Positions 1,068 to 27,767 of a stretch of 32,647 nt of DNA are shown here, in pieces (the first letter of the stretch is position 1; every line of letters begins with the position of its first letter). Under the pieces are notes generated by a model that was not told where the DNA came from, ran no database searches, and was given only the letters and a program-made list of their open reading frames with translations. The DNA is from Gammaproteobacteria bacterium (lineage in GTDB: Bacteria; Pseudomonadota; Gammaproteobacteria; Pseudomonadales; Azotimanducaceae). The translations under genes and the position numbers were made by a program. The stretch covers positions 1-32,647 of the forward strand of contig PBVL01000011.1 in assembly GCA_002728675.1 (NCBI GenBank), in the 5' to 3' direction.

Positions 1068-1089
1068 CGGTCCGGAAAGCTATTATGAT
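1062..1089 (+). promoter_or_regulatory. Possible divergent promoter region for the leader/DAHP synthase and the HAD-UbiA gene
   Basis: On the plus strand TTGCAT (1062-1067) is followed after 16 bases by TATGAT (1084-1089). On the minus strand the same bases read CATAAT (1087-1082), a good -10 for the HAD-UbiA gene. The two -10 elements overlap, so the two transcripts may compete. The -35 match is poor on both strands. A start near 1096 would leave almost no room before the leader ATG at 1100 and would exclude the ATG at 1085, so the plus-strand promoter is tentative. Confidence 0.35.
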
Positions 1090-1195
1090 AGCGCGCGTTA
1101 TGACGAAGCAGCGCCCCCAGATCACCGGAGACACGCCATTGCGTGGATCGGCTGCGTGGCAGGGTTATTTTTACTTCGACTGGCTTCGTCGCTGA
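1085..1195 (+). CDS. Aromatic-rich leader peptide of a transcription attenuator
   Basis: A 36-codon ORF lies just upstream of DAHP synthase and ends AWQGYFYFDWLRR-stop. Eight codons near the end (Trp, Gln, Gly, Tyr, Phe, Tyr, Phe, Asp) are followed by a further Trp, so six of ten consecutive residues (1156-1183) are aromatic. A strong intrinsic terminator follows 38 bases after the stop. This is the arrangement of ribosome-mediated attenuators such as trpL and pheL. Here the control codons cover all three aromatic amino acids, which matches a common-pathway enzyme rather than a single branch. The start could be ATG 1085, which has GGAAAG at 1074-1079, or ATG 1100 (31 codons, no clear ribosome site). 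The peptide itself probably has no other function. Confidence 0.75.
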   Translation: MIARVMTKQRPQITGDTPLRGSAAWQGYFYFDWLRR

Positions 1196-1205
1196 CTCAG
1201 TTAGA

Positions 1206-1246
1206 GAAGGCGGCACCGTCCGCCCTCAAGGAAACCCCGAAGGCGG
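1206..1246 (+). promoter_or_regulatory. Competing pairing elements of the attenuator
   Basis: The octamer GAAGGCGG occurs twice, at 1206-1213 and 1239-1246. The single CCGCC at 1220-1224 can pair with the GGCGG of either copy. Pairing with the first copy leaves the terminator intact. Pairing with the second copy opens the upper part of the terminator stem. This gives a simple two-state RNA switch. Which state follows from ribosome stalling is an inference that I could not settle by eye. Confidence 0.5.
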
Positions 1247-1267
1247 AAGCCATCGGGGTTTTTTTTT
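1233..1267 (+). terminator. Intrinsic terminator between the leader peptide and DAHP synthase
   Basis: AACCCCGA (1233-1240) pairs perfectly with TCGGGGTT (1253-1260). After one mismatch the stem continues with GGC/GCC (1242-1244 with 1249-1251), capped by a GGAA tetraloop. A run of nine T follows (1259-1267). It lies only 14 bases before the DAHP synthase ATG and downstream of the leader stop, so it must be read through for the gene to be expressed. That makes it the attenuator terminator and not the end of another gene. Confidence 0.85.
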
Positions 1268-1281
1268 GGAGCAGAAGAACA

Positions 1282-2385
1282 ATGATCGACAGCCGAGTGG
1301 ACGACCTCAACGTGTTAAGTGAACAAACGCTCATCAGCCCAGACCAACTGAAAGCCGCACACCCATTGTCAGACGCCGCCCTGCGCACCGTCTCCGAGGG
1401 TCGCTCGGCGATCAAGAACATTCTCCAGCGTACAGACCCGCGCTTGTTTCTCGTGGTTGGCCCCTGTTCCATCCACGATCCGGTTGCGGCCCTCGAATAT
1501 GCGACGCGTCTGAAAGGCCTGGCCGACGACGTTGCCGACAGCCTGTTCATCGTCATGCGTGTGTACTTCGAGAAGCCCAGGACGACCGTCGGCTGGAAAG
1601 GATTCATCAACGACCCAGGAATGAACGGCTCCTTCAACATCGAGGACGGGCTCGGACAGGGCCGCAAACTGTTGATGGAACTCTCCGAGATGGGCCTGCC
1701 AACTTCAACGGAAGCGCTGGACCCCGTCTCGCCACAGTATCTCCAGGACCTCATCACGTGGAGCGCGATCGGCGCGCGGACCACCGAGTCACAGACCCAC
1801 CGCGAAATGGCAAGCGGACTCTCCTCCGCAGTCGGCTTCAAGAACGGCACGGACGGCGGACTCGAGGTTGCCATCAACGCGCTCCAGTCGGTGTCCGCGC
1901 CCCATCGTTTCCTCGGGATCAACCACCAGGGACAGGTGTCGGTCATTCACACGCGCGGCAACGCCCATGCGCACATCGTGCTGCGTGGTGGCGGCGGCAA
2001 GACGAACTACGACTCAGTATCGGTATCCGTGTGCGAGCAGGAACTGCTCAAGAACGACATCACCCCGAACATCATGATCGACTGCAGTCACGCGAACTCG
2101 AACAAGGACCCCGCACTGCAGCCGCTTGTCATGCAAAACGTAGGACACCAGATCGCCGACGGCAACGGCTCAATCATTGGTCTGATGGTCGAAAGCAACC
2201 TCGGCTGGGGCAATCAGTCGATCCCGGAGGATCTGTCGCTACTGAAGCACGGGGTATCGGTCACCGACGCGTGTGTCGACTGGGAGACAACGGACGCGAT
2301 GATCCGGGAGCTTGCAGAAACGGTGGCGCCGCATCTTGGTGAGCGCAAGCCTCCCGTGCTCTCTGAGATGACCAAGTCCGCGTGA
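1282..2385 (+). CDS. aroF: 3-deoxy-7-phosphoheptulonate (DAHP) synthase, class I
   Basis: This enzyme condenses phosphoenolpyruvate and erythrose 4-phosphate, the first step of the shikimate pathway in the cytoplasm. It has 367 residues, close to the roughly 350 of E. coli AroF, AroG and AroH. Recognisable blocks include GPCSIHDP, EKPRTTVGWKG, ARTTESQTHREMASGLS and DCSHANSNKD, which supply substrate and metal ligands. The wording around TEALDPVSPQYL and GINHQGQ is nearer to the Tyr-type isozyme AroF, but feedback specificity cannot be read with certainty. I chose ATG 1282 because GGAG at 1268-1271 is well spaced. The longer in-frame opening from 1156 runs through the terminator. Expression is probably controlled by the upstream attenuator with Trp, Tyr and Phe codons. 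Confidence 0.95.
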   Translation: MIDSRVDDLNVLSEQTLISPDQLKAAHPLSDAALRTVSEGRSAIKNILQRTDPRLFLVVGPCSIHDPVAALEYATRLKGLADDVADSLFIVMRVYFEKPRTTVGWKGFINDPGMNGSFNIEDGLGQGRKLLMELSEMGLPTSTEALDPVSPQYLQDLITWSAIGARTTESQTHREMASGLSSAVGFKNGTDGGLEVAINALQSVSAPHRFLGINHQGQVSVIHTRGNAHAHIVLRGGGGKTNYDSVSVSVCEQELLKNDITPNIMIDCSHANSNKDPALQPLVMQNVGHQIADGNGSIIGLMVESNLGWGNQSIPEDLSLLKHGVSVTDACVDWETTDAMIRELAETVAPHLGERKPPVLSEMTKSA

Positions 2386-26842: not shown

Positions 26843-26927
26843 TGGTGCGAAAGGAGAGACTCGAACTCTCACATCTTTCGATACTAGAACCTAAATCTAG
26901 CGCGTCTACCAATTCCGCCACTTTCGC
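26843..26927 (-). tRNA. tRNA-Leu (anticodon UAG)
   Basis: The 85-base gene includes the encoded CCA (complement of 26843-26845). The acceptor arms GCGAAAG and CTTTCGC pair perfectly. The anticodon loop TTTAGGT sits on the stem CTAGA/TCTAG, giving TAG for CUN codons. The long variable arm typical of tRNA-Leu is present (TATCGAAAGATGT). It has its own promoter about 120 bases upstream and lies directly before tig. Confidence 0.97.
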
Positions 26928-27468
26928 ATGACCCTTCGCATCCGCATCGACTGCCCGATCCGTCCGGGCACCGCGAAAAGTCCATCTGGACGTCTGCGGC
27001 CCTTTTGAAATCAACAACTTACTGAGCAGAACACGGGTACCGAAAGGGCGCGAATTATAAGGAGATTCGGCAGGATCGACAAGCGTGTCCGTGAGATTCG
27101 GGACCGCGCACCGACCTGGCGCAGCGAAGCTGTCCACGTCACGCGTACCAGGCTGCCGGGCGACCTTGTGTGATGGAGGGGAACATTGGCAACCCTGCTC
27201 GGTTCAGCCCCCCATTTTCCTGTACGTTTATCCCGGTGTCGCGCTCGACCACTGCGTGGATGTGCCCGGGTTCGGGCGGCCACCTCTCCGGGGTGACCCG
27301 CCCGCCGTCGACGATGCCATCCGCCCGCAGAGCGGACCCTCTAAGGGAACCGGGAGTTCGCGATTCAAGATGCCGACGGGCACCTACCGGCGTTTGCTTC
27401 AGACCTGCCCTGACGGGAAGACGCCCAGCCGTTCAAGGCACAGGCGACTCGCGTCGATGAGGGGAAGT
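26928..27468. other. 541-bp gene-free spacer splitting the tRNA cluster
   Basis: Between tRNA-His and tRNA-Leu I find no convincing gene. Open frames here on both strands are Arg/Pro/Ser-rich with no known motif, and several run into the tRNA genes. The only clear content is the tRNA-Leu promoter at 27054-27082 and the roughly 120-base leader after it. The rest (27083-27468) shows only short GC-rich inverted repeats. An unannotated small RNA is possible but unsupported. Confidence 0.6.
27054..27082 (-). promoter_or_regulatory. Promoter of tRNA-Leu
   Basis: On the minus strand TTGTCG (27082-27077) is followed after exactly 17 bases by a perfect TATAAT (27059-27054). The bases after the -10 are TCGCGCCC, a GC-rich discriminator as found at stable-RNA promoters under stringent control. 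The start point would be about 120 bases before the tRNA. Confidence 0.8.
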
Positions 27469-27545
27469 TGGGGTGGACGACGGGGGTTGAACCCGCGACC
27501 ACTGGAATCACAATCCAGGGCTCTACCAACTGAGCTACGTCCACC
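27469..27545 (-). tRNA. tRNA-His (anticodon GUG)
   Basis: The 77-base gene includes the extra 5' G (-1) special to tRNA-His and an encoded CCCA end. Acceptor strands GTGGACG and CGTCCAC pair fully. The anticodon loop TTGTGAT on the stem CTGGA/TCCAG gives GTG. The T arm GCGGGTTCAACCCCCGT and the D arm AGCTCAGTTGGTAGAGC are standard. It lies 23 bases downstream of tRNA-Arg. Confidence 0.98.
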
Positions 27546-27568
27546 ATTGTTGCCTCGCCGGTCGCGAC

Positions 27569-27645
27569 TGGCGCGCCCGGCAGGACTTGAACCTGCAACC
27601 CTCGGCTTAGAAGGCCGATGCTCTATCCGGTTGAGCTACGGGCGC
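27569..27645 (-). tRNA. tRNA-Arg (anticodon UCU)
   Basis: The 77-base gene has paired acceptor strands GCGCCCG and CGGGCGC, discriminator G and encoded CCA. The anticodon loop CTTCTAA on the stem TCGGC/GCCGA gives TCT, which reads AGA/AGG. These codons are rare in a GC-rich genome such as this. It lies 45 bases downstream of tRNA-Pro. Confidence 0.97.
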
Positions 27646-27690
27646 ATGGCTGAGTTCGCCGTCCCGAACCGGAGTCCCGGACGCCGCAAG

Positions 27691-27767
27691 TGGTCGGGGT
27701 AGAGAGATTCGAACTCCCGACATCCTGCTCCCAAAGCAGGCGCGCTACCAGACTGCGCTATACCCCG
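27691..27767 (-). tRNA. tRNA-Pro (anticodon UGG)
   Basis: The 77-base gene has paired acceptor strands CGGGGTA and TACCCCG, discriminator A and encoded CCA. The anticodon loop TTTGGGA on the stem CTGC/GCAG gives TGG, which reads CCN codons. It is the first gene of the Pro-Arg-His group, about 60 bases after a strong promoter. Confidence 0.98.

Follow-up and report, generated by a model that had tools for sequence, protein, structure and literature searches.

In the textbook account, the DAHP synthases of Escherichia coli are controlled by the repressors TyrR and TrpR and through isozymes. The leaders of E. coli ilv and thr contain codons for several amino acids. E. coli trpL and pheL combine, like the element described here, control codons in a leader with a terminator that competes with an antiterminator; unlike it, each is devoted to one amino acid, and their Rfam models have no match here. 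The original prediction for this locus held that known attenuators usually sense a single amino acid, which is true of these two leaders but not of ilvL (MRTRILVLGKRVG), found before ilvBHC in Streptomyces lividans and described, in the passages on that leader, as having codons for several amino acids (PMC8079986). The his attenuator of E. coli and Salmonella differs from the present element in its His codons and its operon; its extra hairpin between leader and terminator, the role of which is discussed in PMC1183508, has a predicted counterpart here.

Attenuation ahead of a DAHP synthase gene is itself in print. In the actinobacterium Corynebacterium glutamicum, the AroR leader, with F-Y-F, precedes aroF (Neshat et al. 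2014), and the excerpts on this system report that transcription goes up when Phe is limiting, with no response to Tyr (PMC11802643, PMC4046766); codon content therefore need not equal sensing. This arrangement, as described there, resembles ours in having an aromatic-codon leader before a DAHP synthase gene, and differs from it in that the same excerpts mention no Trp codon. The element uORFC-13-1, located upstream of Acholeplasma aroF and predicted to be a Phe uORF, likewise consists of a predicted uORF and a terminator before DAHP synthase (PMC8632094); as outlined there, its 24 sequences come from Acholeplasma and environmental sources only and have Phe codon(s) and a ribosome-binding site, whereas the leaders described below belong to other bacteria, combine W, Y and F codons and mostly have no Shine–Dalgarno (SD) sequence. 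RNA-level control has been proposed for gammaproteobacterial DAHP synthase genes too, as here: conserved RNA motifs were predicted before aroF and aroH in Shewanella (PMC2659441, PMC8632094), and attenuation of E. coli aroF was proposed by Camakaris (1980), as cited in the same two papers. The passages concerned give no leader peptide, and we set these cases beside our locus by description. A comparison of actinobacteria states, in its relevant passage, that no conserved RNA structure was found before phenylalanine or tyrosine operons (PMC1262725). Among the literature matches listed (titles, beginnings of abstracts and passages, with most subscription journals outside the coverage), none announced a leader with W, Y and F codons before a DAHP synthase gene. 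This suggests that the mixed form is little described, as had been supposed, whereas the attenuator type as such is already known from AroR and uORFC-13-1.

The locus lies in a window of 32,647 nucleotides, the whole stretch of DNA that was analysed, which is one contig (C108) of a genome of the family Azotimanducaceae (4.66 Mb, 252 contigs; completeness 91.45, contamination 7.57). The features of the locus are the following.

1062–1067, + strand: possible −35 element TTGCAT, weak (by eye)
1084–1089, + strand: −10-like TATGAT, 10 nt before the leader ATG (sequence and comparison with relatives)
1100–1195, + strand: leader peptide ORF, 31 codons and TGA (ATG at 1100–1102, TGA at 1193–1195; sequence and relatives)
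1157–1177, + strand: control codons W1157, Q, G, Y1166, F1169, Y1172, F1175 (masked folding of the window RNA)
1188–1193, + strand: RNA segment B, GUCGCU, overlapping the end of the leader ORF
1209–1214, + strand: RNA segment C, GGCGGC, partner of B or D
1219–1224, + strand: RNA segment D, UCCGCC, partner of C or E
1232–1267, + strand: intrinsic terminator, stem AAACCCCGA (1232–1240) with UCGGGGUUU (1253–1261), nine-T tail at 1259–1267
1242–1247, + strand: RNA segment E, GGCGGA, in the terminator loop; D:E is the putative antiterminator
1282–2385, + strand: DAHP synthase, type I, AroF-like, 367 amino acids

The ORF at 1100–1195 translates into MTKQRPQITGDTPLRGSAAWQGYFYFDWLRR. The leader with W, Y and F codons, the terminator with its nine T residues and the 14 nt (1268–1281) that separate the end of the T-run from the DAHP synthase ATG at 1282, all of them noted in the original prediction, were confirmed in the sequence. 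A second W codon of the leader is located at 1181, and a ribosome waiting there would mask segment B. The gene at 1282 matched TIGR00034 (aroFGH) with 477.4 bits (cut-off 173.2), and the solved chains nearest to its product are named Tyr-sensitive DAHP synthase. The next gene on its 3′ side encodes NfuA (above the NCBIfam cut-off) and is convergent, on the opposite strand. At 57–1067 on the minus strand, upstream of the leader, lies a divergent gene with a HAD-like N-terminus and a UbiA-type prenyltransferase-like part, both below the NCBIfam cut-offs; its best NCBIfam match is UbiA family prenyltransferase. Since the upstream gene is divergent and the downstream gene convergent, the leader probably governs a single gene, that of DAHP synthase. 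Elsewhere in the window, four tRNA genes, Leu(tag), His(gtg), Arg(tct) and Pro(tgg), are clustered at 26843–27767 on the minus strand. In the window, Rfam reported four tRNAs only and no leader family. When 11 loci were compared with Rfam 15 at E values up to 1, no family reached its gathering score and neither Trp_leader nor Phe_leader was matched; the overlaps seen were at chance level (Rev39_5p_UTR at L004, 16.4 bits with a gathering score of 88; BSR1350 at L201, 26.2 bits with a gathering score of 216). Rfam-based annotation would therefore miss the element.

Our interpretation is that the element attenuates transcription of the DAHP synthase gene by a ribosome-mediated mechanism, in which competing hairpins form a chain of the his type; we put the probability of this reading at about 0.8. 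Of the original prediction, which as a whole is partly supported, the attenuator reading as such is well supported by the conserved aromatic leader, by compensatory changes in the competing hairpins and by a predicted fold that depends on the position of the ribosome. The pairings B:C and D:E are lettered as in the his attenuator. To judge from the spacing of the −10 element, RNA polymerase would start at the leader ATG or a few nucleotides before it, and a ribosome would translate the near-leaderless leader. A shortage of charged Trp-, Tyr- or Phe-tRNA would make the ribosome wait on the W/Y/F run with its leading edge short of B. The free B would then pair with C, D would be released to pair with E, E would be drawn out of the terminator loop and the polymerase would read into the gene. 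With all three kinds of tRNA charged, translation would proceed to the stop codon and the ribosome would cover B, C would capture D and the terminator would form. We infer that termination and read-through actually follow in this manner, and that each of Trp, Tyr and Phe is likely sensed by the leader.

To evaluate the aromatic leader against chance, we shuffled upstream regions. Among 5000 dinucleotide-shuffled versions of the 300 nt preceding the window gene, a 14-residue tail with at least six aromatics, W, Y and F included, occurred at a frequency of 0.0006. Of the 206 family genomes, 70 proved in a family-wide search to contain a close DAHP synthase (E up to 1e-140); the 71 close places and three weaker ones gave 74 upstream regions, 73 of them distinct. 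An aromatic-tailed leader was found in 64 of these 73, picked by the highest aromatic count and by eye, so that the comparison with shuffled sequences is the fairer number. With a fixed rule of at least five aromatics within a 14-residue tail, such a leader was present in 45 of 71 family regions (71 of the 74 places, leaving out L136, L124 and L169) versus 3.8% of shuffles; the combination of W, Y and F in a tail having four or more aromatics occurred in 47 of the 71 (6.1% of shuffles). The corresponding numbers for orthologue regions outside the family were 4 of 92 (1.3% of shuffles) and 3 of 92 (2.8%). The nine family regions in which no leader was found are L005, L134, L137, L139, L154, L167, L168, L173 and L169, the last of just 23 nt. 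Lack of conservation of the aromatic run among relatives, which the original prediction had named as speaking against it, was not what we found: the W/Y/F run is conserved in the family.

Within the last 18 residues of the 64 leaders, Y is present in all, W in 58 and F in 57, and 51 leaders contain all three. These counts bear on the possibility that the attenuator is effectively tuned to one aromatic, Phe or Tyr, with the remaining aromatic codons having a role just in timing. Such tuning would agree with the reported response of AroR to Phe and not to Tyr in spite of its F-Y-F (excerpts in PMC11802643), with the proximity of the window enzyme to Tyr-sensitive chains, and with the absence of W from 6 and of F from 7 of the 64 leaders, all of which have Y. 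It fits less well with the high frequencies of W and of the complete set, with the retention of W beside Y/F in diverged leaders (GWLGTRAYTTWYAYVS, WWAGYYFF, SGSWFGY), or with the predicted folding of the window RNA, in which every one of the five codons of the run, W1157 too, leaves B free. We regard tuning to a single aromatic as a tentative alternative, with the odds somewhat against it.

The aromatic residues are concentrated at the end of the peptide: their fraction was 0.425 (291/684) over the last 12 codons of 57 leaders, as against 0.080 (77/963) for the N-terminal portions of the 42 leaders with a mapped ATG. At aromatic codons, 115 of 251 non-synonymous differences were from aromatic to aromatic (117 similar pairs, which are not independent of each other). 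The commonest motif is W-x-G followed by three or four Y/F, and in this group the Gly, often together with a Leu, is conserved between W and Y. Diverged genera have the tails WWAGYYFF, GGYWFFTS, SGSWFGYRLR, WVRYFGRFTV and WLGTRAYTTWYAYVS. Across these genera, as read from the sequences, the peptide varies and the aromatic class stays. Conservation of the Gly and Leu exceeds what codon counting needs, and would be accounted for by a TnaC-like arrest, in which a conserved W-x-G-Y-Y-Y-F nascent peptide stalls the ribosome on a free metabolite. However, Y and F often interchange, and in related genera the motif gives way to very dissimilar aromatic strings, with the RNA segments retained. A nascent-peptide arrest is, accordingly, a very improbable explanation in our estimate.

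Two further observations concern single genomes of the family. The genome G164 has two DAHP synthase places, on contigs C15 and C22 (L136 and L130), with identical 150 nt upstream, which may reflect a recent duplication or an assembly duplicate. In L171 (G060, contig C36), the interval from the attenuator terminator to the DAHP synthase gene is longer than in relatives by about 140 nt; the extra stretch has palindromic ends by eye and looks like a small inserted element.

The start of the leader was compared among relatives as well. In 43 of 61 family leaders, TANNAT ends 6–10 nt before an in-frame ATG (0.9% in shuffles); the mode of the gap is 7 nt, with exactly 7 nt in 26 leaders and 10 nt in the window. 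This spacing places the 5′ end of the leader mRNA at about the ATG, and by it most leaders of the family look leaderless and that of the window near-leaderless. SD-like motifs were seen upstream of few of the leader ATGs listed. In the window, an alternative start is possible at TTG 1139, which has an SD-like GGAG (1127–1130). A cTTGCA lies in related leaders at a place like that of the weak −35 candidate (by eye), and a plain consensus promoter scan reported no promoter at the window leader. Leaderless leader peptides are in print for trpL of Sinorhizobium meliloti (PMC7298713) and for Streptomyces (PMC8079986); in the passages describing them the mRNA starts at the leader AUG, as it would here on the −10 spacing only, and they concern other groups and operons.

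We then considered the RNA segments downstream. Family orthologues mostly share the order aromatic run, stop codon, B, C, D and E. In most relatives B reads AUCGC(U/C) and directly follows the stop codon, and the commonest forms of the other segments are GGGCGGU for C, ACCGCC for D and AGGCGG for E. Alignment A1 was built from 52 of 62 distinct attenuator sequences; left out were L120 and L160 (N), L011 and L133 (B shifted or absent), L163, L165, L171 and L172 (other layout), and L146 and L147 (weak terminator). The leaders excluded for another layout or a weak terminator still scored 23–32 bits with the RNA model. Compensatory change was counted for C:D, D:E and the terminator; MAFFT fails to line B up between groups. 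For C:D together with the terminator, 92.8% of cells in the 52 leaders were paired and 70 cells were changed on both sides (97.2% paired for the terminator helix alone), with a covariation of 0.237 compared with 0.135 (sd 0.008) after shuffling and at most 0.120 when slid. For D:E, which excludes C:D, 86.4% were paired and 37 cells were changed on both sides, with a covariation of 0.202 compared with 0.095 after shuffling and at most 0.103 when slid; the significance of all these differences is overstated because the shuffles ignore kinship. Two of the five covariation measures for D:E were not above shuffles (both-sides-changed pairs, 4 vs 3.0; further pair types, 8 vs 8.6). Compensatory changes accompany the conservation of all three predicted helices, C:D, D:E and the terminator, of which C:D and D:E are mutually exclusive. 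In L011 the leader ORF runs through B, which is nevertheless retained as AUCGCC, in keeping with a role of B as a signal in the RNA. In the predicted fold of the window RNA, the leader start pairs with the leader end.

To evaluate the effect of ribosome position, we folded each leader up to just past E while masking the RNA as far as 12 nt downstream of the A-site codon's first base, a distance that represents the ribosome footprint. When the last aromatic codon occupied the A-site, the mean probabilities over the 52 leaders were 0.73 for B:C, 0.14 for C:D and 0.81 for D:E; with the stop codon in the A-site they were 0.05, 0.64 and 0.32, respectively. D:E was greater in the stalled state than at the stop in 48 of the 52. 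With B shuffled, the stalled B:C fell from 0.73 to 0.38 and D:E fell to 0.55; the real B exceeded the shuffled one for B:C in 44 leaders and for D:E in 45. In 49 of the 52, the final aromatic codon occupies the third, fourth or fifth position ahead of the stop, so that the front edge of the modelled ribosome comes to lie near the stop codon and does not reach B. Seven leaders were exceptions, with C:D remaining at 0.6 or more when stalled (L140, L141, L142, L016, L153, L010 and L143). In the model, then, ribosome position shifts the predicted fold from B:C and D:E (stalled) towards C:D (stop) for the majority of the 52 leaders.

The window's own copy behaved somewhat differently. With W1157, Y1166, F1169, Y1172 or F1175 in the A-site, B:C was 0.86–1.00 and D:E 0.99–1.00. 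With W1181 in the A-site B was masked, yet D:E was 0.89; from L1184 through the stop, D:E was 0.59–0.76 and C:D 0.24–0.41 (D:E 0.76 at the stop itself). D:E is thus favoured in the unfinished window RNA at every modelled position from W1157 to the stop (0.59–1.00), and the predicted switch is therefore weaker than in the relatives; the window copy may be leaky. It is only as full-length RNA that the window copy folds into C:D and the terminator. These features raise the question of whether the switch is a relic, decaying in the source genome through an extended ORF, a second W over B and a weak C:D while functional in relatives. The overlap of the window stop codon with B, the position of W1181 over B and the persistence of D:E from L1184 to the stop are in line with such decay. 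On the other hand, all segments and the terminator are intact in the window, the ORF of L011 likewise runs through B, and the window copy reaches 61.6 bits with the RNA model (E 1.3e-13; the window is among the 52 leaders behind the model). Decay of the window copy thus appears unlikely to us.

The window copy is also the only strong match of the model in its genome, the next ones having 22.5 bits (at the same place, on the reverse strand) and 18.6 bits (150 of 1896 first-look candidates scored). That this sole strong match precedes DAHP synthase argues, under the same limit of 150 scored candidates, against a constitutive terminator that stands behind a chance ORF, as do the rarity of the aromatic tail in shuffles, its conservation across genera and the mutually exclusive helices with compensatory changes. 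Terminators are common, and a plain consensus scan of the + strand did not contain this one, points that would suit a constitutive terminator; we nonetheless consider it the least credible of the alternatives, at a few chances in a hundred or so. The chance ORF as such is ruled out by the shuffles and the conservation.

We also searched for protein regulators and for similar leaders at other aromatic genes. The TyrR-type HTH model (TIGR04381, printed as HTH_TypR, which we take to be the TyrR HTH) matched in none of the 206 family genomes, and TrpR (TIGR01321) was not found in the source genome, the one genome searched for it (91% complete); E. coli controls were matched by both. In the source genome, no aromatic leader was found before trpE or before the second aroFGH-type DAHP synthase (L002), and pheA directly follows a gyrA-like ORF (by eye). 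A third match to PF00793 in this genome (L003) was set aside; it reads as KdsA and is flanked by CTP-synthase-like and enolase-like ORFs (by eye).

Finally, we looked outside the family. At E values up to 0.01, the RNA model matched none of 92 orthologue loci outside the family (Pseudomonas, Halomonas and others); among 98 orthologue loci from the order and from named genomes there were six matches, all of them family members. At E values up to 1e-4 the model matched at least 72 of 390 order genomes and at least 24 of 369 class genomes, numbers that include family members and many terminator-like matches. Inspection of 23 such loci revealed five in other families of the same order, in which an aromatic-tailed ORF with a terminator precedes an NCBIfam-confirmed DAHP synthase (L189, L191 and L195 in f39, L201 in f7 and L209 in f43). 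L192 proved to belong to the family itself, as a paralogue whose leader (SYWFNDR) is weak, and the remaining inspected loci had no pairing of an aromatic-tailed ORF with DAHP synthase. At L216 (G815, 1501–1603, reverse strand) an ORF tail ...LWVGYLYALT is followed by a terminator, and the ORF behind was not recognised as DAHP synthase.

Of the class-level DAHP synthases, 90 among the matches listed were fetched, and 85 upstream regions were readable (5 were short). Most of the regions read have no mixed aromatic leader. Such a leader with a T-run was seen by eye in 4 of the 85, all of an F-Y-F-W type with a terminator: FFAFYFWFS (L266), FFYFWFS (L267), FYFWYYF (L272) and FYRWYYF (L277). L267 alone of these four matches the RNA model, weakly (22.1 bits, sense strand, at the leader). 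By eye, all four have −10-like boxes near the leader start. Weaker candidates are L244 and L295, and L255, L286 and L307 have aromatic-rich ORF tails with no T-run just behind. The tail in L286 (G715, contig C40), MRPTYFSYYRYYRYTYFM, contains nine aromatics, and its stop lies 184 nt before DAHP synthase.

In these bacteria, whose genomes gave no match to the TyrR-type HTH model, a single short RNA seems capable of integrating the supply of all three end products. As a candidate OR-gate sensor that is naturally varied in dozens of genomes, it would be useful for relating the number and kind of control codons to sensitivity. We see a slightly less than even chance of a wider picture, in which entry into the shikimate pathway in this family without TyrR would be set mainly by one leaderless leader, functioning as an OR gate that responds to uncharged Trp-, Tyr- and Phe-tRNA, and in which mixed leaders before DAHP synthase, recurring in several other families of the order and class, would represent a widespread, as yet unnamed type of control that takes the place of aromatic repressors.
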